Positions 2,832 through 31,323 of a stretch of 31,323 nt of DNA are shown here, piece by piece. Numbering within the stretch: position 1 is the first letter of the stretch; every line of letters begins with the position of its first letter. Both the position numbers and the translations under genes were made by a program. Source of the DNA: a virus; the IMG/VR virus record IMGVR_UViG_3300009149_000167, positions 1 to 31,323 of that record, one strand, 5' to 3'. The notes under the pieces were generated by a model, which saw nothing but the letters and a program-made list of their open reading frames with translations, was not told where the DNA came from and ran no database searches.

Positions 2832-2832
2832 C
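2811..2832 (+). promoter_or_regulatory. Candidate promoter element upstream of the tail tube gene
   Basis: A TATAAG -10-like hexamer (2826-2831) sits in a 22-base stretch that matches bases 10260-10281, upstream of the tail-tip operon, at 16 of 22 positions, including CGGCTATA. TTGACT occurs at 2797-2802, but its spacing to TATAAG (23 bases) is too long for a classical sigma70 promoter. Part of the stem-loop uses the same bases. Confidence 0.3.
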
Positions 2833-2877
2833 GCTCCAGTTATAGGAGAAAGGGCCTTTTGTTTTCGGGGGTAAGGA

Positions 2878-3624
2878 ATGGCTACTAATCAGGATCTGAA
2901 TCCTCAAAATGGAGTACAGGGTACTTCTTATATTTATGACTTCGGTACCTCCCCGAATACTCGGACGGCGGTATCCCAGAAGGTTCGTCTTCTGACCCCT
3001 GCGTATGGAAGTACCGAGGGGTTGAGTCAGATTGGTGTTGTCGGATCCTTTAATCCGACTCACTCGAGGGATGTCACGGAAGTTCGCGGTATTGGTTTCG
3101 GTGACAAGGTTGCTGAGCTGGTGCCTTCGGTTTCTGCGGTTATCACGGCCTCCTTCGAGAGGGCGATGCTTTACCTGAGCGATATGTTTTCCGCTACCGG
3201 GTATGGTAGTGGTCTCAATGGTCCTGTGAGGGCTCTGAGTCATCACAGGTGGCCGTTTGATATTGAGCAGCAGTTGGTTTTTAGCACGCTTGCAGATATG
3301 GATCTAGGGGTCCAAAATATCGGTAAGACGGGAAAAGACTGGGATGGTGGTGTTAAGGCTATCGAATTTCCTACTACGGTGTTAGATAAAGCTAATAATT
3401 ACTCAACCCGAGGCCATACAGCAGTCGTTACTATTTACGAGGCTTGTTGGTTCAATGATTATAACTTCACCCTGTCGAAGGATGAGGGGCAGATCATGGA
3501 ATCAGGTGGAGTGACTGTTTCTGATGTCCATGATTTAGGTTCAGTGTACGGCGAATTCATGGCTACCGGTAATGACCCCACTATTCAGAGTGGTTCCATC
3601 AGGTTTGATCCTGTTAGTCCGTAG
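2878..3624 (+). CDS. Major tail tube-like protein
   Basis: The 248-residue protein shows a beta-rich pattern of the type seen in phage tail tube proteins: a glycine-containing strand (GVVGSFNPTH), a charged strand-turn (REVTEVRG type, here DVTEVRGIGFGDKVAEL), then VITASFERAMLYLSD. It also has a late strand run typical of tube loops and C-terminal edges (AVVTIYEACWFNDYNFTLSKDEG). It has no signal peptide or membrane helix. GGGGG lies six bases before the ATG. It is the last gene before a very strong terminator, as expected for a subunit needed in many copies. The chaperone-like pair and tape measure downstream fit the conserved order tube, chaperones, tape measure. A second structural protein (for example a sheath fragment) is an alternative but does not fit the length well. 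Confidence 0.65.
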   Translation: MATNQDLNPQNGVQGTSYIYDFGTSPNTRTAVSQKVRLLTPAYGSTEGLSQIGVVGSFNPTHSRDVTEVRGIGFGDKVAELVPSVSAVITASFERAMLYLSDMFSATGYGSGLNGPVRALSHHRWPFDIEQQLVFSTLADMDLGVQNIGKTGKDWDGGVKAIEFPTTVLDKANNYSTRGHTAVVTIYEACWFNDYNFTLSKDEGQIMESGGVTVSDVHDLGSVYGEFMATGNDPTIQSGSIRFDPVSP

Positions 3625-10281: not shown

Positions 10282-10321
10282 TTGTATGATAAGGGGAGGG
10301 TTATTTTCAAAGGGGAACCCC

Positions 10322-11224
10322 ATGGCCGGAACGATCCCTGTATTTAGAAGTGCTTTTACATCTCCTGAAGATGAGTTTTCAGGGAGGGGGGTAAGGCCGG
10401 TTGTTTTCGACATCTTGGCCCCTGACCATGAAACTAGCATTCTTCCAGACCATTTAAAAATGGTCCTGCATGTGAATCCGACATCTATGAAGATGTCTCA
10501 TTCGAAGGTCATCGAGAGGATTCATACAGAGGGAGGATTTGTAGAACAGCATTTCGGAGATGGTACCGAAACCATTGCGTTCGAGATGGCTACGGGTGGG
10601 TTTATGAGACTCTATACGGGTCTCACGAATATTACCGGTGGGGGAATCGATGTCGGGGGTACCCGACGGGAAACAATTGCTTACGATAAATATTTGGATA
10701 TACTTGCCCTGTTTCATAATAATGGGCATATTTATGACTATCATGGGAGAATCGTTTTTGATGGGATCATCAAAATCTGGTTTGATGGGCATACTTGGTA
10801 TGGGTGGTTCCAAAGTTTTTCCGTTTCTGAAGAGGCAGAGTCCCCCTATCAATTCACCTTGTCCGCCAATTTTATTATAGATAGTGAAAAGGTGACTTTA
10901 AGGACTACAATACTTCCGGGAGGCGCCTCCTCAAGCCAGGACCCGACAAGAAAAACTTTCGAGTTCCAGGAGGAAGAAATTTCCACTGTGAATACTGATT
11001 TCTCATATGAATCGAAATTGGAAGAGGAAATTAAAAATTTCAAGAAGATTGGGGATATTAATCCTTCTTCCGAATCTTTTGAGGAAGATTATTACCCTGA
11101 ACCTGATAAAACTTCTCTGGGGATGGAGAATACTGAAAAAGAAGAGGCCACTCTGCAACTGTTCAAGGACGTTAAAGAAAGGGGAGAAGACATTCAGTCT
11201 TCTCTGGGGGAGAAGACTGAATAA
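10322..11224 (+). CDS. Tail-tip / baseplate protein sharing a domain with the next gene
   Basis: The 300-residue protein carries a domain at about 45-200: LHVNPTSMKMSHSKVIERI, HFGDGTETIAFEMATGGF, YLDILALFHNNGHIYDYHG, then IWFDGHTWYGWFQSFSV and a closing FTLSANFII strand. The same order of blocks is found in the second half of the next gene product. This arrangement is known from tail-end proteins located between tape measure and hub (the XkdP-like neighbourhood in PBSX-type phages). The C-terminal 90 residues are acidic and probably disordered. An in-frame ATG at 10286 lacks a ribosome-binding site; ATG 10322 has AAAGGGG seven bases upstream and is chosen. A 67-base gap separates it from the next gene. 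Confidence 0.6.
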   Translation: MAGTIPVFRSAFTSPEDEFSGRGVRPVVFDILAPDHETSILPDHLKMVLHVNPTSMKMSHSKVIERIHTEGGFVEQHFGDGTETIAFEMATGGFMRLYTGLTNITGGGIDVGGTRRETIAYDKYLDILALFHNNGHIYDYHGRIVFDGIIKIWFDGHTWYGWFQSFSVSEEAESPYQFTLSANFIIDSEKVTLRTTILPGGASSSQDPTRKTFEFQEEEISTVNTDFSYESKLEEEIKNFKKIGDINPSSESFEEDYYPEPDKTSLGMENTEKEEATLQLFKDVKERGEDIQSSLGEKTE

Positions 11225-13559: not shown

Positions 13560-16500
13560 ATGGGTGTTGAGCATCGTCCTTATGCGGGTAGTTGGAATTT
13601 GAATCAGACAAAACTGGTTCAACATTCCCCTGATTGTCTGGTTTATTTTAATGGGGACACTTCAATTCCCGGATGCTCGAGTTGTTCCGGCCGCATTGAG
13701 ATGCAGAAATATATTATCCAGGTCAGTGTGGAGTCTGGTGTGGATGCTGGCTCAGCTTCTGCTAACCTTTCCCTGGCAATTCCTATCCATACGGCGGACG
13801 GGATGGGGAGGGATGGTCAGTACCTTTTAAGGGCCGGGTTGGAAGTTCATATTTATATGAGGGGATATTTCCCGGTTCAGGGTCAGTTTCAGGGAGTGGA
13901 ACTCGAGGAGGATGTTGGAAATCTGGACATTTCCCAGATTATGACCTACCCGTATTATCATGTTTTTCATGGGGTGGTGACCGGAGTAGATGTCTCTAAA
14001 CAAGGGGGCCTTCAAAGTTATACGGTTCAGTGTAATAGTATGATGTATTTCTGGCAATATCATAATGTCAGCCAGAATGCTTCTGCTTTTGGGCCGAGAC
14101 CAGCTAACTCTAAGCTCAAGAGTAATCTTGTAGGGCATCAGTTTACTGGATGGACTCCTTACTCGATCATTTATACCTTATTCCATGATGTGGCGGGAGC
14201 TGCTGGTGGTGTGGGTTTTGCGATTGATCAAAAGACGAATGTTGATGCTAATTCCTCAGTAGGAGACCAAAGTCTTTTCTCTTTGAACCTTGAGTATTGG
14301 AAAAGAAGATTCCAGACCAGGATGATTCACTTGAGGATGCATGGAGCTAGCGGTCAGGTTTACAGTGCGGCTCAGGGAATTTTTTTGGGGCGTTTGAGCG
14401 GGAGTCGTGTGCAAAGTATTTTGACGCATTTCAAAGCCACAAGAAGTGCAAGTGAAACGTTAAAGTTTGACATTTTCTCAGCCTCAAGAGCTTTGGGGCT
14501 GACAAAGACTACAAAACATCCGACTACAGGGGAGACCATTGTTAAGGCAACTTTTGGTTCTAATGTTTCAGGAACCTCAGCTGAAATTGAAGGGGTAGAC
14601 TCTAATTCGGCAACGGACATTAATGTTTTTGATCTCGAGCCTTATGCACAGAAATTAGGGGAATTGGGACAGGTTAATTTTTGGGAGTCCACATATCAGT
14701 CCAAATTAGATGTGGCGCAACAGGTTTGCCAAACAACAGGATATGAGTTTTACCAGGATGTAGACGGAGATTTTGTTTTTAAACCCCCCCTTTATAATTT
14801 GGACACGTCTTCTAGTCGAGTGTACAGGATCGAAGAAATTGATGTTATCTCAATCGCGGAACATGATAAGGAACCTGTTTGCACATATATGACCTTTACT
14901 GGAGGCCAGTTCCGTAACTATCAGATTGGGGGTCTGGAGGGAGAGTGGGGAACTAGAGGTCAGTATGTGGATTATCGACTGGTGGCTCAGTTTGGGTGGC
15001 GTCCGGAAAGTTTTGAGTCTACCTATCATAATAATCCAAGGACTATGTTTTATGCGGCAATGAACAGAATGGATATCTTGAATGCCCCAACACGTTCCGC
15101 TGAGATCTCAATTCTTTTAAGACCTGAGTTAAGGCCTGGATTTCCAGTTTATGTAGTTGGGATCGATTGTTTTTATTACCTCCAAAACATGTCTCATTCC
15201 TGGAGTTTCGGGGGTTCCTGTACCACAAGTCTGAATTTAGTGGCAAAGAGACCAAAGTTCTATGCCCCGGGATATTCTAAAAAGAGAGGAATCGGCGCAA
15301 TTGATCTTTCTCAGATGTATCTCCCCAAAAAACCTTTGAAGATTATTGATAAAGAGGGACATCCTAGACTTTCTGGATTCCCAAATGTGGTTTTAGCCCT
15401 GAACCCTTATGGAGTTAATCCTCTCCATTTTGTTACCGGGGCAGATTTGAAAGATTTAAGCAATCCTTTGGTTGTAAGGAACCTCATAAAGATTGCTTTA
15501 GAAACTAATCTTATCTATGTGGACTATAATAACAGTGGGACGCCGGAGAAGGGCCCCTTTTTGATGAAGATAGACCCCACCTCGGAAGTTAAACCAGACC
15601 CCCTGGGGACGGAGGCTAAAGAAGGTGAGGTAAATACTGACGCTGCTTCGAATGGGGTCCCAGAAGGGTTCCAAAGACTTAATTTTGAAACCTTTGCGGC
15701 CGGTGCAAACCTCCTTGCAGCGGCACGGGAACAAAGGGCTTCGGTTGCACAAACTTATGAAAAGGTTATCCTAGAGATAACCTCAAATCTTCAGAATCTG
15801 ATAGAGAAAAGAAAGAAGTTGAATGCCCAGAAAAAAAATACGGAGGCCATAAACAATAAAATCAGTTCGGTAGAACGACAAATAGAGAGCCTGAGAAATC
15901 AGGTGACCCAAGCCGAATCCGCTATCCAAGATAAATATAAAAATGATGAGCAAATTCAAGGAATTTTAGACCTGTTCAAGAACTTAATGCTTGGATATAT
16001 CCAGGATCAGTCTGATTATCCGGCTCCGAACTCTACTGCTTCCTACCTGGACCTCCTCAGCGACAAAAAAGCAGCCTTTACAAATACAGAATTGCCTGGA
16101 GCCTATCAATATTTTTCTTGCTCCCACCCGGACCCGAAATTTCAAGGTCCTGGTATTCTGAGGGCAGACCTCAAAGCGGGAGCTTTGGTAGAGCCCCCAG
16201 CCAGGGTGCGGGAACAGTATCGTGATACTGTAGGATTCGTCCCCACTCCGACAAGAGGTCCTGACGGGGTTTTTCCAGAGGCAGAGTTAGGGAAGATTAC
16301 AGTTTATAATGGCTTGGCTCTTTTAACTTCTCAAAAAGAATCTTTTGTTGACAAGGATGGTAAGGAGAAGACCAGAAGAATTCCAGATATCTTGCCGACT
16401 TCTGAAATAAAGAGTATGGTTTTTACAACTCACCAGTTGGACTTGAGCCAGGCCCAAACAGCTTATAACTTTGGGGAGAATTTCACTGGTCTGGGGGAGG

Positions 16501-17804
16501 GAACTTTTGAGGTAGTCAATAAGGCAATTAATACTAAAGCTAAAAAGGGTGGAACTAGCCTGGAGTATTTTTATAAAGAGGATTGGGAGAAATTTATTAA
16601 GGGAACAGTAGGATGGCCAGAGTTTTATGAAAAAGTGGAATTCCCAACGGAAGTTGTATTTTTAGGGAGTCCTTATGCTACGGATCAAGAAGATATTCTC
16701 ATAGATTTGAGGCTCACCCCTTCTTTTTCCGAGTCATCTACGGATAAAGAAATTACAGAGGTTCTTCGTACCTTCTTTGTAAACCTTCTGTATGTGACAG
16801 TAAATACGGCCCTTCGGGAAAAATGGATAGAGTTAAAGCAGGAAGTTTTGGCGGGGACCGTAGGCGAACAGAGTAATTTGGTGACTGCTACGACTCAGAT
16901 TGAGGCGGATTTTAAGGGAATTGGTAAAGCTCTTTTCGGTAAATCTTTTAAGATGAAGTCGGATAAAGTTGAAAAGGTAGTGGGGAAAGGAAAGAAGATT
17001 TTTGCCTCTCCCGTTTTCCCCGTGAGTGACCGAAAAGGATATGAGGTTATTGGGTCGTATCAGTATGGAAGAGATATAGATATTGCTCCAGGTTCCTCAT
17101 ATGATCAGTTGGCCCTGAAAGACCCCCTCTCTTTTGCGAACCCCTCTGACGTAGAAGAGTTTATCAAAATTTTGACCGGAGACGCTAGAGATACAAGCAC
17201 TGGAGATGATGAGGAATTAGTGACTCCTATCCAGAAGGCCGCTGCCGAGATTGAGCAGAAACTTATGAGTGGGATTCTTAACAATCCTGGAACCCCCAAT
17301 GAGGTACTTGAATTAGTACGAGGTTTTATGGATGAGTCTAAGGGTAAGAAAACCTCAGTGGGGTTCGCTAATTGGATTGCAGCTTCTAATGACCAAGATT
17401 TCAAACTCTCTGTTAATAATGCTGCTTACCAGTTGGCAGACCTTCAGTTGCATGTGAATAAACCCATCTGTAATTGCCGAGCTACGGAAGCAGACATACT
17501 CCTGAGCGAGGCTTTCAATTCAGAAAACTTCACTCAGATTGTACACACGGAAGATTTAGACCAGGTGACTGGGGCCATTAGTAATCTCGTAAACCAAAAG
17601 TCTGTCGGATGGGACAAAAGCCAGAAAGCTATGGGAGGTCAAACAACAAATCTATTTCCCAGCACCACTTCTGAGCTTAATAAAAGAAAACAAGATGTTT
17701 CTACAGCTTTCGGAGATCTCAAAAAGTTAGCGGACCATGTGGTCAGTGATAGTGGGTTGGAGGAGGCTATTGCTGCCTTTGATGCTGCCAAGGAGAAAGT
17801 CTAA
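13560..17804 (+). CDS. Baseplate hub protein, gpD/gp27-like, with a long C-terminal extension
   Basis: The 1414-residue protein starts with a possible zinc-binding motif (H22, C26, C39, C42). Residues about 50-580 follow the pattern of phage late control gpD / T4 gp27 hubs: SGVDAGSASANLSLAIPIH, LRAGLEVHIYMRGYFP, YYHVFHGVVTGVDVS, GLQSYTVQCNSMMYFW, QQVCQTTGYEFYQDVDGDFVFKPP, and RSAEISILLRPELRPGFPVYV. Beyond the hub fold lie a coiled coil (about 735-800), a mixed region, and a late block containing FPVSDRKGYEVIGSYQYGRD (about 1152-1172). Typical gpD/gp27 proteins are 350-450 residues, so two thirds of this protein are extra. TGGGG lies seven bases before the ATG. The stop overlaps the ATG of the spike gene by one base. 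The hub forms the ring joining tube to spike; the extension's role is unknown. Confidence 0.75.
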   Translation: MGVEHRPYAGSWNLNQTKLVQHSPDCLVYFNGDTSIPGCSSCSGRIEMQKYIIQVSVESGVDAGSASANLSLAIPIHTADGMGRDGQYLLRAGLEVHIYMRGYFPVQGQFQGVELEEDVGNLDISQIMTYPYYHVFHGVVTGVDVSKQGGLQSYTVQCNSMMYFWQYHNVSQNASAFGPRPANSKLKSNLVGHQFTGWTPYSIIYTLFHDVAGAAGGVGFAIDQKTNVDANSSVGDQSLFSLNLEYWKRRFQTRMIHLRMHGASGQVYSAAQGIFLGRLSGSRVQSILTHFKATRSASETLKFDIFSASRALGLTKTTKHPTTGETIVKATFGSNVSGTSAEIEGVDSNSATDINVFDLEPYAQKLGELGQVNFWESTYQSKLDVAQQVCQTTGYEFYQDVDGDFVFKPPLYNLDTSSSRVYRIEEIDVISIAEHDKEPVCTYMTFTGGQFRNYQIGGLEGEWGTRGQYVDYRLVAQFGWRPESFESTYHNNPRTMFYAAMNRMDILNAPTRSAEISILLRPELRPGFPVYVVGIDCFYYLQNMSHSWSFGGSCTTSLNLVAKRPKFYAPGYSKKRGIGAIDLSQMYLPKKPLKIIDKEGHPRLSGFPNVVLALNPYGVNPLHFVTGADLKDLSNPLVVRNLIKIALETNLIYVDYNNSGTPEKGPFLMKIDPTSEVKPDPLGTEAKEGEVNTDAASNGVPEGFQRLNFETFAAGANLLAAAREQRASVAQTYEKVILEITSNLQNLIEKRKKLNAQKKNTEAINNKISSVERQIESLRNQVTQAESAIQDKYKNDEQIQGILDLFKNLMLGYIQDQSDYPAPNSTASYLDLLSDKKAAFTNTELPGAYQYFSCSHPDPKFQGPGILRADLKAGALVEPPARVREQYRDTVGFVPTPTRGPDGVFPEAELGKITVYNGLALLTSQKESFVDKDGKEKTRRIPDILPTSEIKSMVFTTHQLDLSQAQTAYNFGENFTGLGEGTFEVVNKAINTKAKKGGTSLEYFYKEDWEKFIKGTVGWPEFYEKVEFPTEVVFLGSPYATDQEDILIDLRLTPSFSESSTDKEITEVLRTFFVNLLYVTVNTALREKWIELKQEVLAGTVGEQSNLVTATTQIEADFKGIGKALFGKSFKMKSDKVEKVVGKGKKIFASPVFPVSDRKGYEVIGSYQYGRDIDIAPGSSYDQLALKDPLSFANPSDVEEFIKILTGDARDTSTGDDEELVTPIQKAAAEIEQKLMSGILNNPGTPNEVLELVRGFMDESKGKKTSVGFANWIAASNDQDFKLSVNNAAYQLADLQLHVNKPICNCRATEADILLSEAFNSENFTQIVHTEDLDQVTGAISNLVNQKSVGWDKSQKAMGGQTTNLFPSTTSELNKRKQDVSTAFGDLKKLADHVVSDSGLEEAIAAFDAAKEKV

Positions 17805-20203
17805 TGCCTCGTCCTCTTTTTAATAAGGCCACTTATGGTGTAATCCATGAGATGGTGAATCGGAAGAAAGCCCGGGACCAGAGGTCCTCAAGTGGCATCT
17901 CTTCAATGAATCTCTGTCTCGGGAAAGTAGTGTCGGTGAATTATGAGGAGGCAAAGGTTACCCTGAGAATCCTTTCCGGGGCCGACCAGGAGTTTCAAAG
18001 GGTACCAGTACCGATTACCTTTCCAGGTGCCGGAGATCGGGTTTTTCTAGGGGCTATGCCAATGGTGGGAGATGTGGCTGTTTTAGGTCACCTCACTCAA
18101 GAGTCCACTGGTGGAGAGACTACTCCTGTAATTCTTAGCTGGTGTCTTCCGGGTCCTTGGATGGGTTATGACTGGCTTCCCGGGCAGCCCTTTGCCCCGG
18201 ATGAATATTCTATGGATCCTAAAGACTCGGCTTTCACAGCAGGAGTCTTTCAGAGGACCCGAAGAAAGCTTCGACACATGGAGCCTGGTAATATTGTAGC
18301 CTCTTCTGGGCAAGGTTCCGATTTGGTTCTTGATGAGGGAGTTCTTCTCTCAAATCGACGATGCAATGAAATCCGTCTTCGGGACCAGGACCAGGCTCTA
18401 GTTTGCCGAACTCTGCAACAGTTCCATGCAATGGCCGGAGTTCGTGTTTATTCCGGAATGGTTCAGAGGGAAGCCACCCTTTTGCCAACCCAAATGATCT
18501 CTGATGGAACTTATTGGGAGACCCCTTATCAAGTAGACTATACGACAAAAACCCCCCTTGATGATGAGGGTCTGAGGAAAATTCCACACCCTAAATATCA
18601 GGTGGGATATCTATCCCCAAATGATGTTTTCAATCGCATTGAAGATTCCGGAAATATGGCAGGATCAAATTTATCTGGAGTTTTCTTCAATGGGGACATA
18701 GACCCATATGTGTTTTTGAGGAGGGGTCTCTTCATTACACAAAATGGGTTTCTTTATGACGGGAAAACCTCTTCGGGGGCTTCTTATGGGGGGAAGCCGG
18801 GTTATCGAGTTTCAGTGAACACAGATGAAGACGGCGTTCCTCTAAATAGTCTCACAGGGGGGAAGGAAAATGCGGAATCCTTTACTGAGTATCGAATTGA
18901 AGTTACTCACACCTCTGATGGGAGGCTCCCAGTAACAGAGCAGACAGATAACTTTGACGCGGAAAGGCTTCCTTCCGCAGAGTTGTCTGGAACCAACCTT
19001 AACGGGAAAACTTCCCCCTTTGTTACCCTTGTTTATGGAAGCGTTGTAGGGAATGACCCGTTCACCCCTGCCGGAAGAGAAAAATATGGAATCCCACTAA
19101 AACCAGTGATTTTTACGGAAGCGGGAGACCCTGCTCCCGACATGGAAAGTGGGATAGGTTCTCCTGTATCCGACCATGCCGCAAGTTATTTCGGAGTTAG
19201 CCCAGTAAATGCAGACACACCTCCTACTTTTTGGTCCGTGACCAAAGACGGTCGGGTGAAGATGTCTGTGAGTGGGCCGAAAACCTCTGCTTTTTGCGTT
19301 GAAGCTAATTTTTCTTCTGGTGTAAAGATTAATACCGGAGGAGTTTTTGAGGTTAATGCAGCAGGAGGCTTCCAGTGGTCTATTTCAGGAAAGAATGAGG
19401 TTGATAATCGTAGCCTTAACCTTTCCTCAAAAGGGGCGGTGAGGATTTACGCCGACGGAGACACGACGGAGGGAAAACAAACAAAGGATCTTCGTTCAAA
19501 CTCGGCTTCTACACAACCGAGTTTGGAGATAGGCGGTAAAAATAATGTTCTTGTCAGTTCTGGGAAAAGAGTTGACCTGCGTTCGGAGGTAATTGAACAC
19601 CAAGCCCAGACTCATCGATTACAAGCGATGTCTGGAATTTCTTTGAACGCAGTGAAAAATATTGAGGTAAACTCGAGCGTATACAGCCAATCTGTCGGGG
19701 GTAAGGCTGATTATTCATATTTTGGCCCGAAGGATCTTTTGCCCACTAGTGGCCCTCACAGGAATACCGTCATCAGTGGTGTCGGTGTAGGGACGGTAGA
19801 CAATTATCTTGTCTTGATGGGAGACAGGACGGAAAACATTGTGGTTGGAGACCACAGCACCTCGATCCTGATAGGAAACCTCACTTATGAGACCCTTGCA
19901 GGAACCTGGGAAGCAAGGGCTGGGGTAAATTCTCTTTCTGTGGATGTGGCAACAGGTCTCAGTGGTTCGGTTAAGGTTGGAACAGTGAAAATGGAAGCCT
20001 TGGCAGGGACTACAGAGATCAGTGGGCAAGTGTCCATCACTCTGAGGAGTTCAGGTCCCGCAACCCTCGCAGGATTAGCTGGAGTTAATTTACAGGCTCC
20101 CGGAAAGAAGGGCGGTATAGTGAGTGGGTCAGACTTGGACCCCCTTACAGGGGCCCCCCTCTCCACATATGGGATGGGAAGCCCGGGTCATCTTTTGACA
20201 TAG
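17804..20203 (+). CDS. Baseplate spike / puncturing protein, gp5/gpV-like
   Basis: The 799-residue protein has an N-terminal OB-fold region (about 37-115): LCLGKVVSVNYEEAKVTLRI, VPVPITFPGAGDRVFLGAMP, MVGDVAVLGHL, as in gpV/gp5/VgrG-type spikes. The middle is beta-rich. From about 525 to 765 short strands repeat (VDLRSEVIEHQAQTHRLQAM, SGISLNAVKNIEVNSS, STSILIGNLTYETLAGTWEA, SGQVSITLRSSGPATLAG), typical of a trimeric beta-helix needle. It ends GSPGHLLT with no lysozyme domain, unlike T4 gp5; the hydrolase seems to be supplied by the CHAP protein two genes upstream. AAGGAG is eight bases before the ATG, which overlaps the hub stop codon, so hub and spike should be made in a fixed ratio. It is expected to sit below the hub and to pierce the outer layer of the host. 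Confidence 0.78.
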   Translation: MPRPLFNKATYGVIHEMVNRKKARDQRSSSGISSMNLCLGKVVSVNYEEAKVTLRILSGADQEFQRVPVPITFPGAGDRVFLGAMPMVGDVAVLGHLTQESTGGETTPVILSWCLPGPWMGYDWLPGQPFAPDEYSMDPKDSAFTAGVFQRTRRKLRHMEPGNIVASSGQGSDLVLDEGVLLSNRRCNEIRLRDQDQALVCRTLQQFHAMAGVRVYSGMVQREATLLPTQMISDGTYWETPYQVDYTTKTPLDDEGLRKIPHPKYQVGYLSPNDVFNRIEDSGNMAGSNLSGVFFNGDIDPYVFLRRGLFITQNGFLYDGKTSSGASYGGKPGYRVSVNTDEDGVPLNSLTGGKENAESFTEYRIEVTHTSDGRLPVTEQTDNFDAERLPSAELSGTNLNGKTSPFVTLVYGSVVGNDPFTPAGREKYGIPLKPVIFTEAGDPAPDMESGIGSPVSDHAASYFGVSPVNADTPPTFWSVTKDGRVKMSVSGPKTSAFCVEANFSSGVKINTGGVFEVNAAGGFQWSISGKNEVDNRSLNLSSKGAVRIYADGDTTEGKQTKDLRSNSASTQPSLEIGGKNNVLVSSGKRVDLRSEVIEHQAQTHRLQAMSGISLNAVKNIEVNSSVYSQSVGGKADYSYFGPKDLLPTSGPHRNTVISGVGVGTVDNYLVLMGDRTENIVVGDHSTSILIGNLTYETLAGTWEARAGVNSLSVDVATGLSGSVKVGTVKMEALAGTTEISGQVSITLRSSGPATLAGLAGVNLQAPGKKGGIVSGSDLDPLTGAPLSTYGMGSPGHLLT

Positions 20204-20333: not shown

Positions 20334-20921
20334 ATGGCTTTATCTTCAACAATCATATCTTCAGCTATTCTCAATGCCGGATCGGACCTCCTCGGCCCAA
20401 CTTTCCCTCTGTTGTGTAATGCCATCGGAACTTCCGTATTTACCTGGTCGCTGATTCCAGCAAACTTTGCTCTTACTGGGGTCACCTCTGGGGTTCTCGG
20501 AGCAGGCATCGTTACGGGAAAGATTACGGTATCTCCTAATGTGTCGATAGTTCAAGGAGCCCTCACAGGGCAAGGGGTTTCCGGGGTGGTTTCTCCTCGC
20601 CTTGCCAAAGCAGTAGCTATTGGGATCTCGACTTCTTTTTCTTCCTCGGCTCAATATACTGGCCCCTCTGTGGGGGTGGCGGTCGGTACGGATACGTCTA
20701 TCGTGTCCGTTTCGAATCCAGCTACTTTATTATCTTTGATGATTTCCTCAATGATCTCTTCTTTTGGATCTTTCGGAGCCTCCGCAGGAAATGTGGCCTC
20801 CGGATTAGGCAACGGAATTGCACTTCTCCTGCAGACTGCCCAAGGTTTTGGTGCAGTGGCCGGGACTCCGACAGCTTCCGCTTCAGCGGCCGGGACCTCT
20901 CCGCTTAGTAAGGTTTTCTAA
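20334..20921 (+). CDS. Gly/Ser/Ala-rich hydrophobic protein, 195 residues, unknown
   Basis: I do not recognise a named family. The sequence is rich in Gly, Ser, Ala, Val and Ile and almost free of charged residues. It has regularly spaced glycines (LTGVTSGVLGAGIVTGKITV, LTGQGVSGVVSPRLAKAVAI, YTGPSVGVAVGTD) and a hydrophobic stretch TLLSLMISSMISSFGSFGAS. The closing part (GLGNGIALLLQTAQGFGAV) and Ala/Ser tail end SPLSKVF. It starts at ATG 20334; an out-of-frame ATG lies four bases upstream. The giant gene starts at the base after its stop, so both are coupled. The composition would suit a membrane-active or baseplate packing protein; a tip or membrane-contact role is speculation. Confidence 0.75.
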   Translation: MALSSTIISSAILNAGSDLLGPTFPLLCNAIGTSVFTWSLIPANFALTGVTSGVLGAGIVTGKITVSPNVSIVQGALTGQGVSGVVSPRLAKAVAIGISTSFSSSAQYTGPSVGVAVGTDTSIVSVSNPATLLSLMISSMISSFGSFGASAGNVASGLGNGIALLLQTAQGFGAVAGTPTASASAAGTSPLSKVF

Positions 20922-23900
20922 ATGGCTAACATTTTTCAAGGTACGGTTTTGAAGCCAACTCGAGCGGGGACCTCCAACTCCGCCGACACCTCAGTCCCTG
21001 TTAGTGGAGTCATCAGGGATGTGAAGCCTCCCCCTACTGGTTATACTCTCCCGTATCCAGACGTAGTCGACATCGGATTGCAGAGATATAAAGCAGCGAT
21101 CCTTGAGCAAGAGAATTCTGTAGAATATATGGTTTGGGCGGCGAACAGCTCTAACCTTACCCGTGTAGATGACCCTACTTGGTCTCTTGGAGACGGTAGC
21201 GTTACAATTCCGGAGGGTTCTTATACTGTTGTCGATGCAAACAGCCCGGACGAGGAGTTAGGCACACATATCCGAAGGGACGGGTCGGAATATCTTGTTC
21301 TTCGAGATAACCAAGAGAGGAGTATCAGCCAGGTCCTGACCCTGACGATCCGTAATGGGGCGAATCAGATACAAAAGAAGATCTACGAAGGGTTTGATTT
21401 CGATGTCTTGGATGCTGAGACTGGCCTTATTCAGCTTCTTGATACGGCTTTGACTCAGAGTGTTTGTGATCCTTTCGGTACGGACCCTCCCTCGATGTCA
21501 AATTTACGGGGAGATAGCATTGTAGAGATGTCTTATGTGATATCTCCTCAAACTTTCTGGTGGACACGGAATGACTCTTTGAGCACCCGTTTCTCGTGGT
21601 CGGATAGAAGTCAGAGTTGGGTTTTACGAAAAGGAAATTCTCCAGTCGAAGTTGGGGTGTTGACTCCGGGTACCCTTTACACATTAGAACCTAAAGTGAC
21701 CGGGCTTGTGGCAGGCTCCTTCCTTCCTGGAGCCATCTCTGGAGATGCCTGGTGCATGGTCCGTCTTGGAACCTTCCCAGACTCAACTAGCCTTCCTTTG
21801 GGGAAAAATTTATCGGGTCCTTTCGATGGGATTTTTGTCGTTAGTGATTTCACCTCAAAGGAGATCTTCGATTTTGGGGCCATGAGCCCTCCCCCAGCAG
21901 CTGTGATCGGGCAGACGAATTCTCTGATTCAATGGAATCCGGCTTTTGTTGACCAATATGCGGGTCAAACAATATGGTACAATTACAGATCCTTCCAAGA
22001 GAATAAGAACGGAGTTGTAGGAGACTTTCTTACCGCTAAAGACTCCTCCCTCTTTATTGTTCCGGTACCACGCCTTTATGAGAGGCCTATGCTTCGGATA
22101 GGTTCTAGAAGGTACCTGGATACAATTATTGTAAAAACGGAATCCCTGCTGTCCTCTACGTTTGTTGCTTCGGGGCGGGTCGGAGTGGCCCTCTCTACCG
22201 GTAAGTTAAAGTTCAATATCCAGGATGTTCTCAAAAGTGACCCTGAAAGTGTGGAGTTTGAGCCAAGATATCTAAACGACCAAGTGTTTTATGATGGGGT
22301 AGCCCTCAACCTTGAGATGCAACCTCCCAGACCCCCCATCATTCTCCAGGATTCGGATAGTTTTACCCCAATCAGGTCCAACAACGAATTTTATGTTCCA
22401 AATGCAAATCCTTTCCGAGGACTCGGGGTTTCTGGGGTCGAAAACATCTATGATGGTACGGGAGCCTCTCCGACGTCTGGGGTGGCTTCCGTTCGCCCAG
22501 GTGGAGATGACCCCGCCGACCCCTACGCGGGCCTCATACGGCAGGTGGTGGGTCTCTGTAGCCCACTTATCTTCACCAAAGAAGGTCCACTGACAAAGTT
22601 GGTTGTGGTAGACCGTGTCTCGGACATCCCAACCTTCCTGTATAAGATTCCGGACAATACCGTTTATGTTACAAAGGAGAACGTGAACGGCTCCTCGGGC
22701 AGCCGTTTGGAGATAAGCTCTAGTGAAAGATCGAGATTATCCGGATTAGATCTTTATTATCAGCAACCTTACCTCACCCCTTCTTTGTATACAAATGTCG
22801 CTAGCATTGCCTCGAAAAGATATGATTTCTTCGACCTAGATGGGACCGAAAAATTATACTTTGCCTTAAATGGTGTAGATTACGTTTGGGATTCCAGTAC
22901 CCTAACCGGAACTTCTCCGTACTCCTCAGAGGTAGTTGCAGATAGTATTGACTCTATTGTTACAGGACCTGGGAGGGTTTATTCTTTTTCAGGGCATGTG
23001 GTTATTGAGGCTGATAATCCTTTGTCCGGTGTGGTTGAGATCGGGTTTGGCTCCTTAAGTGTTCCTGATTTGAGTGGGTGTTCAGCTTTGGGTTTTGTTC
23101 CTGGTTGGCAGGTTGATTCTTTAAATCCTGACAGTTATTGGATTTCTGATAGTGGGGTTTCTTTTGGGTTGTCCCCAAATTTAATGAAAGATTCAGAGGT
23201 GGCCGACTTTACTGTTTTTGGCCGCCTGGAGAACGAAGTCCTTCAAAAAAACATCTCTCCGTCTGATTTTGTATTTTTGGATCCGATCCCTCTCAAGGAT
23301 ATTCCGGGGTATGATGAGGATTTGTTTTTCAGAGTTCAGGACGGGGATAATAAGATTGATCAGGATCCTTATGAGGAGGTCCTGTATTCTTTCGAGATAA
23401 ATAAAAGGTTCTCTTGGCTTTCCGAGCATTCTGAGAGCCAGCAGATATCTCGGCCCACCAGTTTTATTTATCTCGGTCAGAGGAACGTTGTTGAAGAGGG
23501 GTTTTATCCCTCTATGGGTAGCAGTTTCCTGTTGAGTGATGACGGAGGTCCGTTTGTCAGGCAGGAAATAAATGAGGACTTCATCCTGAATTCTCAGACG
23601 GGTACGATTACCCTGACGAATCAGGTTAGTGGTTTGACCCTACAGGGTTATCGAGGGTCTTTTACAGCTTTCAATAATCAGTTTGTAGACCCAGATGCGG
23701 ACTTTACACTTGCGGGAGTTTCTGAAGGGTATCAGCTCAAGATCCCGTCGGGAAGTGCCATAGGTACTTATATCATTCAGTCTGTTGTTAATGCGACAAC
23801 TTTGGAGGTTTCTCCCAATTTTTTGGTTTCTTCTACCCTCCCGGTTTTCTGGGAAATTTATGAGGGTCATCCCCTTTCAGTTTACGATCCAAGTTTGATT

Positions 23901-26900
23901 TCAGATGTCGTTTATGAGGATTTCAGGCACCTGAGTGCTGAAACTTTTATTATCCGCTTGTTGACTTCTTTAGGTTTGACCCCGGATACGGTTCCAGACC
24001 AAGCCTCGAATCGTCTTGTTTCCGAAGTGGCCAGAGCTTTGGAGATGGGTCGGCTTTTGTCTTTGAGGGTGGACCCTCAGGATAGGCAGAAGGAGTGGGT
24101 GGTAGGGAATGCTGTGGACGGGATAATAATCCCAGCGGTAAATACAGGTTCCTATTATTATGATTTTGGTCTTTTCACTCTGGATGTAGGTGAACTTTCC
24201 CTACGGCCAGGTGATGGTAGTCTTACTAAGGTCGAATCTTTTTCTGCGGCATTGCCCTCAAACAAGGTCGAGTATATCGAGGCCACGGGCCAGCTGAAGT
24301 TCAGCTCGAACCTTTTAGGCAGGATGGTGATCTATACGGAAGACACCGCTGCTCCCTCTTTTGTGGGTGGGTTTGATATTTCTTTGTCTCTCCTTGGGAA
24401 AGAAGAACTTGGGACGATTGCAAATGAGAGTTTGTTTGTTCCGGACACCGGATCTATTAGATTTAACGATGAGGCTTTCTCTATTCAGATTGGGTTAGAC
24501 ACCTTTCAACATGGAGCCCAGTTGGAGGGGGTAGCTTCTTTCACCTCTCCTCTTCCGGCCAATAAAATTGAATATCTGAACTCTACGGGAGAGTTGAAAT
24601 TTGGAGAAGATCTCCTGTTTGATTATTCCTTGTCCAGAGTTTCCTATGTGGAGGAGTTTCTTAGCCCTTCTGTGATGACGGACAGGACTGCGGAGGTCAA
24701 ATTTGAGGGAGAGATCAATTTATCTGAGGATGATATCAATGAGTTCGGGGGAGAGCCGATTTATTTTGTTGAGCAGGCGATCTCTGAACCTCCGGACACA
24801 GTGATTAATCCGATTGACGGGTCTTTTTCGTTCCTCAGCCCAGTTCTTTCTGGGCAATCTGTTGAGGTCGAGTATTTCCAGGCTTCAGCTTCTGGAGAGC
24901 TTTGTAAGGCTGCCTCTGGATTCCCCGCTCCGATCCGGGAAGTCCTTCCCGTTTTTATTCAAGGAGAGGAGACTACCCGAGTTTCGGATAAGATTTATTC
25001 TTTTAATCCAGGTGGTAACACCATTTATACTCCATATGAACCTCTTGTTTATGTGGGGGCAGTCCAGAAAAACAGGGGATCCGATTACGATTATTTCATA
25101 AACAATCTGAATCAGATTGTTTTCCTTCTCTCAATAGAAGACCCCACCATTTCTGTTACCATTACGTATGCTATTGCGGAGGCATTAGGGGGAGAAGCAG
25201 CCTATTCGACTTCCACCAAACCGGTTTATCGACCTCCTTTTTACCTTGAAAAGGAACAGGAGAGCTTTGAACTTTCCGGAGACCGAACTTCACAAATGGT
25301 TCCCGGGAAACTCTTGCGTCTTGGGGCTTCCTGTTTTTATCTGGAAAGCTCTGCCTACAATGCTTCCACCGATATTACTACGGTCGGGATCTATCCCACT
25401 CCGAGAGAAGAAGCAGGATCAAGGGCTCCAGGGAAAGATTTGATCTCTGCTTTATCAAATGTTCCGATTGCAGTGGGGGTTCCAAATATTCCCAATGGCA
25501 ATCTTGGGTTTATGTTGACCCTGAATGTTGATTATCAGTCCATCCAAAAAAATCAAAGGGATGTGACCTTTGTCGGGGATCTTACTTCTTTTGCCATTGC
25601 GGGTCACATACTCCAGATAGGTGGGGAACCCTATATAATCGCTAAGAGTCAGTTTGATGAAAATGGGTCTTATACGAAAGTTACTGTTGCGAGTCCTTTC
25701 ACAAGAGAATTCGAAGCTTCTACCGTTTCCACTAGGGTAAGCGCCCGCCCAATTTACCCTTCTGGGGCAACCATTTTTCTAGGGCCGGGGCAGATCGTTG
25801 GAGATAGCTATGAAGTCATAGTTTTTGGGGAGACTCAGAATTCAGTTCCCCTTCCTGGTAGGACCCTTATCTCAGAGAAGCATTATACAATAGAGAGCGG
25901 GTCTGGGAATATCATTCTTCTCTCTCCCTTGCAGGAGGGGATACAACCCGGACAGAGTTTCTACATGAGGTTCTCTGGGGCTCGGGTTCTCCAACCGATT
26001 CTTCTTAATGACACGGTTATTTATCCTCGTTTCCGAGCCACTTTTAAGTACGTGCAGATCCCTGAGGAGACCCAGAATAAAATTCTCCAGGCCACCTATA
26101 GCTACTACAATCCAGACACTTTCTATGCGGAATCCGTCCCCTTGTCAGAATATGCTGTGGAGGTTTCCCAAGAGGTGGCTAAAATGGTTCAGAGCCAGAC
26201 TCCTGGGGGAGGTGGTTTTGTTGTTTCTCAAGGAGCTGCTGGAGGAGATAAGGGAGGGACTGACCCCCTCTCTAATATTCGAACCGCAAAAGATAAAGAT
26301 CGGGCGGCACGGCTGTACCTTGATTATTATAACCGTGTCATTGTGGGGTTTGAGCAGATCTATGAGGGGATTACAGGACTCGTAATTGGTGATCGTGACG
26401 GAAAATTCAAATTCTTCGTGGGGAGATTCAAAGACGTTCCGCCCCCGGGTCTTGAGGACGACGTTACCGGATACATGAACCCACGCAGTTTGTGGTCTGA
26501 AGTTTTCCGTTCCAGGACCGTATCTTCCCCTTATCCTCTTGTTACGGTACTGGAGGATAATATTGTAAATCCAGCTACGGCGGTTTTGTCGAATGGGACT
26601 TTGTCCGGAGAACTTCTGGACCCGGAGGATTTGTCTCTCCTCATGGGGGAGCAAAAGGTCCTTGTCAAAAATGACATGGACGATTTTATCCTCACCCGAA
26701 CCGGGGGAGTTCAAACTGTTTTCATCCCGGGATCTTTCCCTTTACAAAGTCGGGGTCAGGTCTCTGGGGTTCATCAGAGAATGGCTTCTCCGCAGGTCTG
26801 GTCACGTTTGTACCCTTTGCGGTCCAGGGCTTTTACTACAACCTATCCTGGGTTGGGTGCAGATGTGGATCCTCCTGGAGTGTATTCCTTCTCTTATACG

Positions 26901-29900
26901 TATGAGAACTCTTCCGGGGAGATAGTTACTGCCTCCACTCATAATAAGCCGATTGCTCAGTTGGGGAATCCCGTTCTAGGGGACCTGACAAAAATTCAGA
27001 AGACTTCGATTGGATATCGCCTTCCGAGAGCTTGGGTGTGGGACTACAGTCCTGAAGGGTTCCCTGAGATAGATATTTTGACGGCAGGAATCCCTTGTAT
27101 AGTAGCGTCGATGGTTCCGTTGTCGGAGTTCCCGGTAACTTCAGAAGGTCTTCCAGATCCTCAATATTTGATGTCAGTTCCTCCGGGGCCTCCTGGACCG
27201 GAAGACAAGTATGATTTGTCCTCGGGTAACCCAGACCTTCACATGCCCCCCTTTGAGCCAATCTCAAGTTTTAGTGGGCTTGAAAACTTTTATTCTGGGG
27301 GGAAACCACAAAGGCTTGCTCTAGGAAAACCCGATGGGTCTGTAATAGACCTGGCATCTACCCAGGAAAGTTTTGGCCTGTTAGGGGGTTCTATCCTTTC
27401 GGGAATTTTCGTGAATGACGTCCTTCAAGGATGCCTCATCACGATGTGCACTCCTTCGGGAGTCATTTCTGACTCTAATTCTATTGTGAAAACCACAGAA
27501 GAGCCTCTCAAAGGAGAACCGGTAACCTTCGAGAGGGGAGACACTATTTTTGTGGTTCCAGGTGAGCCCTTTGAGATTTCTGATACGGAAGAGGTGAGCC
27601 CAACCAGCTCTGGTGTATTCAGACCCGGTGTAGATTTTGGGTTGAACTCCGAGACAGGAGAATTGCTAGACGTCACTCCCCCTAACCTATTCGGGAGTGT
27701 CTTCACCTCCCCGGTCACGGTTCTCCTCGGATCAAATGGACCTAAACCTCTTCGTACGATTGAAGGTTCTATTGAATACCAGAGCACGAGACTCGAACCT
27801 GTGGGGATTCCGGCTCTTTTGGGGCAAAATAAAGATGATAATGGGGATTACACCCTCCCATTTATCGGATCGGATCTTCAAGAGCCGAAACTTTTGAAGG
27901 AGGTTTTCGATTCCTTCGTGAAACTCCTTTCAGACACGACGATTCCGAATTCTATCTACCCCGAAGAATTTTTAGCATCCGATGGTGAGGTTTTGTCGAG
28001 TGTGTCGGGACTTCTGGATCCCGGAGTTTTGATTACCCAGACAAATCTGAAGCCTTCATCGACGGTCCCCTACATCCCCAACTCTGGAGTTGGGAACCTT
28101 CGTCCTTACGATTTCCTTTTCATCCAAACAGATTCCGAAAGTGGGTACGAGGGCCTTCTCTCTGTTGGTGATGTGTCATATGATTCTGCTGTGGGTAGCT
28201 GGATTGATCCCCCGAGATTTGTGACCCAGACCCGGAAAGGGAACCGAGTTAGATACCTTTTCGATAACTGTATGGTTCACCTTGGGCCTGGGTTTGTCAC
28301 GATTGTAGAGGGAGGTGGCTTCACTGACATTATCCTGGACCCAAGTGTCCCTTTAACTCTTGATGATGGGTCCAATATCGCAGTTGGTGGTTTGAATTCC
28401 ATTGTAGATAATCTTCTTCTTCCGTTCCCAAATGAAAATAAAGTAATTATAGACCTTTTTGATACGACAACGGGAGTTTTTCAGGAAAGGATTACGATTA
28501 CTGGAAATGCTATTCTTCCTGCCGGGATAGTCCAAACACAGGTTTTTCCGGGAAGCTCTCCCTTTACCCCAACGGCTCTGTTTTATAGTAAGAGCATAAG
28601 AATCCCATTGACGGGGTGGATTACTCCAGGATTTCTTGGGGTTCCTTTCCATTTTTCTATTTCCGTGGACACTCAGGATACAGGTTCTCCTTCAGGAAAC
28701 GTCGCCATTGGCTCTGTCGGGGCTTGGGTTTCTTCTAATAGGGTCACGTTTAATGAGTCCTATGATTTAACTCAAACTGCTCCGGAAGGTGCGGTGCAAA
28801 GCCAGTTGTCTGTAATGACGGTTACGGACTGGAACTCAGATTTGCTTGAGGTAAATTCTCCCGATGTGGTGAATGGGGGGTTTCCTTTCACTTTTAAGCC
28901 GAGGTCTGGGAGTCTTGGGACTTGGACTCCCGCCACGTCTCCGGGAGCTGGAGATGAGAACGGAGACATCAAGGTAACGTCTTTTAGAGGATTCGGTAAC
29001 CTAGACCTGACTCTTTCGAATCTTACTTTTGCGGGTCTCCCTTCTTCAGACTCTAACGAAACTGAGATAATTTTACAGGGGTCTGGAGATGCTGATTCTG
29101 TTTTAGATATGCGGATCACCTCGATAAGTCCGGTCTCAGGTTCCGTAGAGAATGTAGAGCCGGGTGATGTTCTTGTGATCCAGGAGTCTTTTTCTGGACA
29201 GGCGATTAGTAAGGCTGGGACATATCTTGTCCGTAAGGCGGTCGAAGACCCCGGCCCAGGATACAAAGAGGTTATTACAACAGCTTCTTCTGGTGGTGGG
29301 GGTTGGGTAGAGATTGATTTCCCAACGGTGGTTTCCTTTGATGAGATCACAGAAAAACTGACAATTAGCAGTACGGTTCCTTTTTCTTTGTCTACAACAG
29401 GCCATTCTTTTTCTTCTACGGGACGGATTTATGTAATCACGAATCCGTCTAATGTAACCTCTACAGACCCAGCTGTATTTGCGAAAACTTGTGTTAGTGC
29501 TTCTTATAGTTCGATTGATCCTGTTAATCCGATTTTCACTCTTGTTCCAGGAACGTATCGGGATGCCAACAATATTCTTATTAATGCAACCTTATTCGGG
29601 CAGGCAATTTCTGCTGGGATGACTGTTTCGGGAATGGTTTATTTCCCTGTAAATATGGGAGGTATTTATAATTTACCTGAGGTGGGTCTTGATTCCCCCG
29701 CGACTCCTTATGGGATGGTTCGGGTGAACTACACCACCCGTGTGCAAACTCAGCCTTTTCTTTTTGACTATTATATAGCGGGGACTCCGGATACTTTTGA
29801 GGTTCAAAAGAAACCTGTTGTTGCGTTTAATCAGTTTACGGCGGACCCTGCAGCTCCTTTTTATGAAAACATCCCGGGATTGGTTTCTATTACCGAACTC

Positions 29901-31323
29901 AGTGATATTTCTTGGGACTTTCTTCACAACCCTTCTTCTCCAGGGACTACGGTAGTTCGGTGTGTTTTACCTGGGGAGACGTTTCAATTAACGTTCCACG
30001 CAGAGTCGGGGATTTTTCTTGAACCTACGGTACCTACCAGTGTATTTGACCTTGGTGGGATACAAGCTCATGTTATTGACAGTGCGCATACCGGAGGATT
30101 GCTACCAGTATCTGAATTTGGGTTTAGAGGAAGTGTGGCATATCCTTCGATACTTGAGCCGGAGCCAGTTAATATTGAGGTCAGGAGAATTCGAAGATTC
30201 CATGAACCTCTTCAGAAGATCTCTTCTGGGTTCGGAAATCTTCGATACCTTAATGAGGTTCGAAGAGGTGTAGTCTCTGTTTATTCAACTACCTCAAATC
30301 AATATGGGCTCCTGACCACAACACCTCAAGGGACCAATCTTGGTGGTTTGGATGAGTCGAAGGTCAATGTGAGAGCTGGAGACCTGTTCCGACTCCTTGA
30401 CGTTGACGGGAACCTTTTGGAAGAGGTGGAGATCTCTGGAGTGCTTGACCCGGTCACCTTAATGCTTAATCCCCCGGGATTGCTGACTACCCCGGTGGCG
30501 GGGCTTTCTTTCGAGATCTATTTGAGGAGTTCTCCAGTTCCGTACGGTCAGTCTGTAGAACAGCTTCTTGATCTAATGACAGAAGAGGTTTTACTTCGTC
30601 GAACGGCGGACCTTGGAACCAATACCGGTGGCTATGTAGATACCGTGAATGAATTGAAGGATTCAGAACCTTCTACGTTTGGTAGTCTTGGGGTTCAGGT
30701 GGGAGACATTGTTCTTATTGACCCTGCAGGAGAAATTGTGTCTGGGTCTGATCCCGAGTTTGGGTCTAGGCCTTTGGGAGATGTTTCTGTTTTTTCTCGC
30801 CCAACAGCACATGTTCCGGGAGGCCCTTCCTATTTGGACGATAACCGAGGGTTCTACAGAGTTTCTCAGGTAAATAATGAGAGTCTAACGGTAACCGGGG
30901 CTTCAAGTTTTGCAGGAGACCATATTTCTGGGGACACTATTTTTTATCAGGGAACAACGTATGATTATGCTGTTTACCCGACCATCTCGGACAGCGATTT
31001 GACGGGAGGTACGGAGGGTCAGAACGATTTGAGGCCCACAGCTTATGAGAGTGGGGGTTCTTTCTTAGGAGACCCGGAGTCCATTGCTCCGTTCTCCTAC
31101 CGTATCCTTCGGGCAAGGCAGCTTATAACAGAGGAAGCAATAGACCTCATCCTTGTGGAGAGGGATAGGATGCTTTCCTGGTTGGAACTTCTTAGATCCA
31201 GTGTCCAGGAAATCGGGGGCACTTATTATTTGTTCCAGCTCAATGCTCAAATATATGATTTGTCTCTAGGTGTTATTTCAAATGCCCAGATTGAGGGTCT
31301 TGGAGGAATTATTTATGTAGCTC
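20922..31323 (+). CDS. Giant baseplate/tail structural protein, 3' end outside the window
   Basis: I translated this frame by hand from ATG 20922 to the window edge and met no stop: 3467 complete codons and still open. TAAGG lies eight bases before the ATG. The protein is beta-rich with few charged helices and no signal peptide. Motifs of the form STGELKF or DGSFSFLSP followed by a V-E-V-x-Y strand recur (near 890, 1120, 1174, 1220, 1299, 1658 and 2242); the copies at 1106-1127 and 1206-1227 are exactly 100 residues apart. Linkers are a Gly-rich stretch near 1760-1780 and PPGPPGPE near 2087. Near the right edge a different, helical region begins (about 3396-3427, RARQLITEEAIDLILVERDR then MLSWLELL). 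Position after the spike suggests a baseplate wedge or fibre-bearing protein. No catalytic motif was found. An adhesin or several fused baseplate proteins are alternatives. Confidence 0.85.
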   Translation, partial: MANIFQGTVLKPTRAGTSNSADTSVPVSGVIRDVKPPPTGYTLPYPDVVDIGLQRYKAAILEQENSVEYMVWAANSSNLTRVDDPTWSLGDGSVTIPEGSYTVVDANSPDEELGTHIRRDGSEYLVLRDNQERSISQVLTLTIRNGANQIQKKIYEGFDFDVLDAETGLIQLLDTALTQSVCDPFGTDPPSMSNLRGDSIVEMSYVISPQTFWWTRNDSLSTRFSWSDRSQSWVLRKGNSPVEVGVLTPGTLYTLEPKVTGLVAGSFLPGAISGDAWCMVRLGTFPDSTSLPLGKNLSGPFDGIFVVSDFTSKEIFDFGAMSPPPAAVIGQTNSLIQWNPAFVDQYAGQTIWYNYRSFQENKNGVVGDFLTAKDSSLFIVPVPRLYERPMLRIGSRRYLDTIIVKTESLLSSTFVASGRVGVALSTGKLKFNIQDVLKSDPESVEFEPRYLNDQVFYDGVALNLEMQPPRPPIILQDSDSFTPIRSNNEFYVPNANPFRGLGVSGVENIYDGTGASPTSGVASVRPGGDDPADPYAGLIRQVVGLCSPLIFTKEGPLTKLVVVDRVSDIPTFLYKIPDNTVYVTKENVNGSSGSRLEISSSERSRLSGLDLYYQQPYLTPSLYTNVASIASKRYDFFDLDGTEKLYFALNGVDYVWDSSTLTGTSPYSSEVVADSIDSIVTGPGRVYSFSGHVVIEADNPLSGVVEIGFGSLSVPDLSGCSALGFVPGWQVDSLNPDSYWISDSGVSFGLSPNLMKDSEVADFTVFGRLENEVLQKNISPSDFVFLDPIPLKDIPGYDEDLFFRVQDGDNKIDQDPYEEVLYSFEINKRFSWLSEHSESQQISRPTSFIYLGQRNVVEEGFYPSMGSSFLLSDDGGPFVRQEINEDFILNSQTGTITLTNQVSGLTLQGYRGSFTAFNNQFVDPDADFTLAGVSEGYQLKIPSGSAIGTYIIQSVVNATTLEVSPNFLVSSTLPVFWEIYEGHPLSVYDPSLISDVVYEDFRHLSAETFIIRLLTSLGLTPDTVPDQASNRLVSEVARALEMGRLLSLRVDPQDRQKEWVVGNAVDGIIIPAVNTGSYYYDFGLFTLDVGELSLRPGDGSLTKVESFSAALPSNKVEYIEATGQLKFSSNLLGRMVIYTEDTAAPSFVGGFDISLSLLGKEELGTIANESLFVPDTGSIRFNDEAFSIQIGLDTFQHGAQLEGVASFTSPLPANKIEYLNSTGELKFGEDLLFDYSLSRVSYVEEFLSPSVMTDRTAEVKFEGEINLSEDDINEFGGEPIYFVEQAISEPPDTVINPIDGSFSFLSPVLSGQSVEVEYFQASASGELCKAASGFPAPIREVLPVFIQGEETTRVSDKIYSFNPGGNTIYTPYEPLVYVGAVQKNRGSDYDYFINNLNQIVFLLSIEDPTISVTITYAIAEALGGEAAYSTSTKPVYRPPFYLEKEQESFELSGDRTSQMVPGKLLRLGASCFYLESSAYNASTDITTVGIYPTPREEAGSRAPGKDLISALSNVPIAVGVPNIPNGNLGFMLTLNVDYQSIQKNQRDVTFVGDLTSFAIAGHILQIGGEPYIIAKSQFDENGSYTKVTVASPFTREFEASTVSTRVSARPIYPSGATIFLGPGQIVGDSYEVIVFGETQNSVPLPGRTLISEKHYTIESGSGNIILLSPLQEGIQPGQSFYMRFSGARVLQPILLNDTVIYPRFRATFKYVQIPEETQNKILQATYSYYNPDTFYAESVPLSEYAVEVSQEVAKMVQSQTPGGGGFVVSQGAAGGDKGGTDPLSNIRTAKDKDRAARLYLDYYNRVIVGFEQIYEGITGLVIGDRDGKFKFFVGRFKDVPPPGLEDDVTGYMNPRSLWSEVFRSRTVSSPYPLVTVLEDNIVNPATAVLSNGTLSGELLDPEDLSLLMGEQKVLVKNDMDDFILTRTGGVQTVFIPGSFPLQSRGQVSGVHQRMASPQVWSRLYPLRSRAFTTTYPGLGADVDPPGVYSFSYTYENSSGEIVTASTHNKPIAQLGNPVLGDLTKIQKTSIGYRLPRAWVWDYSPEGFPEIDILTAGIPCIVASMVPLSEFPVTSEGLPDPQYLMSVPPGPPGPEDKYDLSSGNPDLHMPPFEPISSFSGLENFYSGGKPQRLALGKPDGSVIDLASTQESFGLLGGSILSGIFVNDVLQGCLITMCTPSGVISDSNSIVKTTEEPLKGEPVTFERGDTIFVVPGEPFEISDTEEVSPTSSGVFRPGVDFGLNSETGELLDVTPPNLFGSVFTSPVTVLLGSNGPKPLRTIEGSIEYQSTRLEPVGIPALLGQNKDDNGDYTLPFIGSDLQEPKLLKEVFDSFVKLLSDTTIPNSIYPEEFLASDGEVLSSVSGLLDPGVLITQTNLKPSSTVPYIPNSGVGNLRPYDFLFIQTDSESGYEGLLSVGDVSYDSAVGSWIDPPRFVTQTRKGNRVRYLFDNCMVHLGPGFVTIVEGGGFTDIILDPSVPLTLDDGSNIAVGGLNSIVDNLLLPFPNENKVIIDLFDTTTGVFQERITITGNAILPAGIVQTQVFPGSSPFTPTALFYSKSIRIPLTGWITPGFLGVPFHFSISVDTQDTGSPSGNVAIGSVGAWVSSNRVTFNESYDLTQTAPEGAVQSQLSVMTVTDWNSDLLEVNSPDVVNGGFPFTFKPRSGSLGTWTPATSPGAGDENGDIKVTSFRGFGNLDLTLSNLTFAGLPSSDSNETEIILQGSGDADSVLDMRITSISPVSGSVENVEPGDVLVIQESFSGQAISKAGTYLVRKAVEDPGPGYKEVITTASSGGGGWVEIDFPTVVSFDEITEKLTISSTVPFSLSTTGHSFSSTGRIYVITNPSNVTSTDPAVFAKTCVSASYSSIDPVNPIFTLVPGTYRDANNILINATLFGQAISAGMTVSGMVYFPVNMGGIYNLPEVGLDSPATPYGMVRVNYTTRVQTQPFLFDYYIAGTPDTFEVQKKPVVAFNQFTADPAAPFYENIPGLVSITELSDISWDFLHNPSSPGTTVVRCVLPGETFQLTFHAESGIFLEPTVPTSVFDLGGIQAHVIDSAHTGGLLPVSEFGFRGSVAYPSILEPEPVNIEVRRIRRFHEPLQKISSGFGNLRYLNEVRRGVVSVYSTTSNQYGLLTTTPQGTNLGGLDESKVNVRAGDLFRLLDVDGNLLEEVEISGVLDPVTLMLNPPGLLTTPVAGLSFEIYLRSSPVPYGQSVEQLLDLMTEEVLLRRTADLGTNTGGYVDTVNELKDSEPSTFGSLGVQVGDIVLIDPAGEIVSGSDPEFGSRPLGDVSVFSRPTAHVPGGPSYLDDNRGFYRVSQVNNESLTVTGASSFAGDHISGDTIFYQGTTYDYAVYPTISDSDLTGGTEGQNDLRPTAYESGGSFLGDPESIAPFSYRILRARQLITEEAIDLILVERDRMLSWLELLRSSVQEIGGTYYLFQLNAQIYDLSLGVISNAQIEGLGGIIYVA
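24237..24635 (+). repeat. Protein-level repeat of 100-residue period inside the giant protein
   Basis: Residues 1106 onward (SFSAALPSNKVEYIEATGQL then KF) and 1206 onward (SFTSPLPANKIEYLNSTGEL then KF) match at most positions and are separated by exactly 100 residues. DNA identity is lower than protein identity, so this is an old duplication under selection, not a recent one. A weaker third copy starts near residue 1299. Confidence 0.8.

Follow-up and report, generated by a model that had tools for sequence, protein, structure and literature searches.

The stretch of DNA analysed here (the window, 31,323 b) is the entire IMG/VR record IMGVR_UViG_3300009149_000167, a linear fragment that carries a run of putative tail genes on its + strand and ends in a giant reading frame. 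A 456-aa protein encoded near the left end (63-1433) matches phrog_5931, a family whose function is not known (E 3e-44); no other strong match to a family was obtained in the window's left part. The + strand run includes: i) a 1354-aa probable tape measure protein (6186-10250), with a weak PhageMin_Tail match below the cut-off; ii) a 312-aa protein, g312 (10286-11224), kept in the same cassette at 45 loci in relatives; iii) a 751-aa tail lysin (11292-13547) with a lysozyme/endolysin-like domain; iv) a 1414-aa protein, g1414 (13560-17804); v) a 799-aa protein, OB799 (17804-20203); vi) a 195-aa protein, g195 (20334-20921), directly upstream of the giant gene; and vii) the giant gene itself (20922-31322). 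The g1414 profile matches gp254 of Tunturiibacter phage Tunturi_5, which is annotated as a tail protein (E 4e-34), and gp185 of phage G (E 2e-6), and the protein is therefore probably the baseplate hub. Its length among relatives varies from ~1280 to 1870 residues, and weak PDB matches give it a coiled-coil-like middle. OB799 is likely the spike; its homologue in the relative L009 weakly matches the Phage_base_V OB domain, under the Pfam cut-off, and a baseplate PHROG. Searches of the PDB with the profiles of OB799, g1414 and the 882-aa gene that lies downstream of the giant in relatives (d882) gave nothing useful, g1414 yielding only the coiled-coil matches.

The giant frame begins with an ATG at 20922, immediately after the TAA stop of g195, and runs free of stops for 3467 codons, reaching to within one base of the record's end. 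This bears out the original prediction of a single + strand frame with an ordinary start, open to the window edge. The probability of such a run arising by chance at the composition of the region (47% GC) is ~1e-78, and the other two + frames of the region have 5-31 stops per kb. Since the window is the whole record and the frame is still open, the stop codon lies off the assembly. The 3467 residues present amount to 375.7 kDa, with a pI of 4.4 and 12 cysteines. Homologues align starting at residue 1, and their C-termini run ~125-130 residues beyond the edge; thus the predicted total is ~3,600 aa, or ~390 kDa, the 3' end of the gene being cut by the edge of the record.

A tblastn search of 50,697 phage records found one relative only, LR745208.1, an uncultured 485-kb phage, with 33-35% identity across essentially the whole length; no cultured phage carrying the gene was found among these records. 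The LR745208.1 homologue is complete (3642 aa) and aligns globally with the giant end to end at 39% identity. The corresponding locus, LR745208.1:213460-260824 (of a 485,034 b record), has a counterpart in IMGVR_UViG_3300025030_000038 (485,040 b) with a 100% identical giant gene, apparently one phage deposited twice. A single-sequence search of viral contigs gave no matches. When the two-row alignment of the giant and its LR745208.1 homologue was used as the query, 74 IMG/VR loci were recovered, mostly full-length, and a query with the C-terminal part recovered 114 stretches, 80 of which were kept. IMG/VR contains relatives at no fewer than 114 places, most of which align co-linearly along their full length with 26-44% identity. 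The contigs that bear them are as long as 485, 497, 402, 376, 372, 312 and 297 kb, and none of the frames matched holds a stop.

The length of the protein is conserved as well. Among 118 complete stop-to-stop frames, taken from fetched loci of which some duplicate or overlap, all but one encode 3010-4168 residues (median 3656). The exception (locus L041) has 2192 residues. There the giant frame is split at 16375-16570 into overlapping parts of 2189 and 1589 codons, and it is intact in the 99.9%-identical L038; the single one-base gap that distinguishes the two points to a sequencing error or a local lesion in L041. In the one large genome checked, LR745208.1, the giant is the longest frame (3644 codons vs 1833 for the next). 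The extreme size first proposed for a single protein holds for its relatives as well. A chance frame or an assembly artefact was considered and is ruled out by the relatives, the chance estimate and the stop-free, length-conserved complete copies.

The setting of the gene is equally constant. Across 75 loci the genes usually run g312, lysozyme, g1414, OB799, g195, giant, d882, a ~290-aa gene, a gp25-like gene, a gpJ-like gene and d288. The window holds the upstream half of this baseplate run; gp25 and gpJ, seen in relatives, would fall past its edge. In L009, the gp25-like protein matches Sheath_initiator at E 5e-4, under the Pfam cut-off, and the gpJ-like protein matches Baseplate_J at E 4e-22. 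The link to g195 persists even in the most distant clade (L065, L067, L072 and L076), in which the other baseplate genes are gone from the locus and g195, giant and d882 are still adjacent. The giant and d882 are also adjacent in LR745208.1, where the OB799 spike and gpJ lie more than 20 kb away. Most relatives keep the baseplate genes in a cluster; in that genome they are dispersed, at ~230,000, 263,839 and 470,519. As judged by gene order, the giant belongs to a contractile-tail baseplate cassette together with an OB spike, a gp25-like sheath initiator and gpJ, and the tail or baseplate association originally proposed is borne out at this level. The gene order and the conserved g195-giant-d882 trio make a baseplate role the most likely one.

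Gene order alone does not prove that the protein is incorporated into the virion. It could be a non-virion or non-baseplate protein, for instance one that modifies the host surface, placed in the cassette by happenstance; no family match assigns it a function, and its placement in the virion is itself inferred. At most of the 75 loci the giant is in close synteny with baseplate genes, which leaves this reading only a slight chance of being correct. Location in the tail cassette would also suit a tape measure, a spike tip or a protein ejected from the tail lumen into the cell, and the longest tail proteins are often tape measure proteins. Here, however, the probable tape measure and the OB spike are encoded by other genes, and the models of the giant are rich in beta structure rather than long helices; a role of this kind is accordingly quite unlikely.

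Cultured phages offer partial counterparts of the cassette. Bacillus phage G, which by gpJ is the closest of the cultured jumbo phages, shows a similar order in gp183-gp189: the tape measure gp183, gp184, the g1414-like gp185, gp186, gp187 and the gpJ-like gp188. Unlike the relatives of the window, it has neither a giant nor an 882-aa gene between gp186 and gp188, and the giant's profile matched none of the phage G proteins tested. In Tunturi_5 (308.7 kb, Acidobacteriota host) the tail genes gp257-gp252 include the hub-like gp254 and also gp253, which aligns with a portion of the OB799 profile (E 1e-8). A 1003-aa protein, gp252, occupies the giant's expected place, yet it gives no match to the profile of the giant. 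Among bacterial genome contigs, three giant-bearing loci lie in MAG bins: L077 (a Terriglobia MAG), L079 (an Actinomycetota MAG) and L078. Although binning does not show the host, it hints, together with the Tunturi_5 hub match, at Acidobacteriota hosts.

Domain searches did not connect the giant to known baseplate families. None of 13 members of the family matched any Pfam family at E 0.05, including Baseplate_J, gp25 and fibre families. PHROGs gave nothing credible, the weak matches to wedge PHROGs (E 0.018 and 0.03) coming from one member each, and a PDB profile search with the family found no credible chain match. T4-type wedge proteins gp6, gp7 and gp10, and Baseplate_J (PF04865), belong to the same neighbourhood, and gpJ neighbours the giant in relatives. 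The giant, however, has no sequence match to gp6, gp7 or gp10 and is several times longer, and the gp6/gpJ role is held by a separate gene. These results bear directly on the original suggestion that the protein may be a fusion joining fibre modules to wedge proteins of the known gp6/gp7/gp10 type, to which its size and its closeness to the wedge genes lend some appeal. Separate gp25-like and gpJ/gp6-like genes exist in relatives, no such module was recognised in the giant by Pfam or by the PDB profile search, and the family is co-linear along its whole length, unlike a fusion confined to one lineage. The fusion is therefore unsupported, and we regard it as improbable.

The original prediction had also proposed comparison with known baseplate folds. 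Confident AlphaFold models of giant residues 1-1032 (pLDDT 86.8, pTM 0.85) and of the C-terminal 1180 residues of the L009 homologue (2425-3604; pLDDT 85.5, pTM 0.77) are both chains of beta-domains, and the last ~175 residues of the L009 model are helical. Foldseek of both ends against the PDB gave no match at E<=0.001. The best fold score against the PDB (Z 8.1) spans one domain only; single domains weakly resemble sheath, tail-tube and tailspike barrels. An EF-Tu-like barrel (Z 7.8) and the sheath/flagellin-like domain (Z 8.1) were considered as kin and set aside as common arrangements. Many matches in BFVD are baseplate or tail proteins, all of them weak. Those labelled "baseplate J-like" reach E 9e-10 but with a TM of 0.09 and an rmsd of 38, and so reflect a shared domain type at most.

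Conservation is distributed over the entire chain. Profile self-comparison reveals duplicated domains, for example at residues 1021/1141, 1381/1501 and 841/1561 and, as a weaker repeat, at 2701/3181-3241. An insertion at residues ~1031-1150 (24012-24371, + strand), present in few relatives, is a tandem copy of the approx. 100-residue domain that follows; alignment occupancy at residues 1051-1150 is 0.06-0.14. Pairwise identity between close copies marks residues ~2400-3000 (28119-29921, + strand) as fast-diverging: the L065 and L076 giants are 24-55% identical there vs 75-96% elsewhere. The C-terminal ~450 residues stay conserved and are among the best conserved of the protein, and the N-terminal end is conserved too.

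The main rival to a scaffold role is a long side tail fibre or receptor-binding protein, its N-terminus on the baseplate, the rest projecting and the variable stretch binding the host. A chain of beta-domains, small tailspike-like barrels and a fast-diverging stretch of ~600 residues are what such a protein might display. The C-terminal ~450 residues, however, are the expected tip of a fibre and yet among the protein's best conserved parts, the variability being internal; Pfam and PHROGs recognised no domain of the fibre, lectin, lyase or intramolecular chaperone type; and the gene is located between those of the spike and the wedge, not behind both. A fibre is thus rather unlikely, though it and a peripheral scaffold predict overlapping things.

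We favour, with a probability of about 55%, a structural baseplate protein that forms a peripheral scaffold, its conserved ends docked and the ~600-residue stretch turned outward. Its gene lies between that for the OB-fold spike and those for the gp25/gpJ wedge, and the protein would belong to a huge phage's contractile-tail baseplate; its beta-domains, some of them gained by internal duplication, would form a chain that ends in a helical C-terminal domain. The N- and C-terminal parts, both conserved, may dock onto the baseplate alongside the 195-aa and 882-aa neighbours, and the docked protein would form an extended peripheral scaffold round the wedge ring. The ~2400-3000 stretch would then face outward, contacting the host surface or bearing exchangeable receptor-binding proteins. 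The docked ends and the outward stretch are inferred from conservation; location in the virion, copy number and a receptor role are likewise putative. Against the scaffold stands the lack of any match to a known baseplate subunit, whether by sequence or by the folds of the two modelled ends. More tentatively still, the contractile injection machine of these phages might possess an extra baseplate ring or cage, with one ~390 kDa polypeptide per wedge, the 882-aa and 195-aa proteins as partners, no solved counterpart and a dedicated internal host-facing region; we consider this possible but doubtful.

Huge phages are widespread, and from its sequence relatives and their gene order the giant family is a conserved, previously unnamed component of the baseplate gene set in many uncultivated huge bacteriophages. 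Huge phages carry very large predicted proteins, of up to 7,694 aa, some tentatively annotated as structural (Al-Shayeb et al. 2020, PMC7162821). The literature search found no paper describing the giant's family, this remark being the only one; in the portion of that article consulted, no family, gene order or fold is named for the large proteins, whereas here the family is defined and placed in a cassette. The giant, conserved at 3.0-4.2 thousand residues and unannotated, can serve as a marker for its group of huge phages and is a candidate for the largest component of their virions, as originally suggested. One internal stretch, residues ~2400-3000, is singled out as the likely region of host contact, and provisional names become available for the genes that encode hub, spike and wedge in these huge phages.
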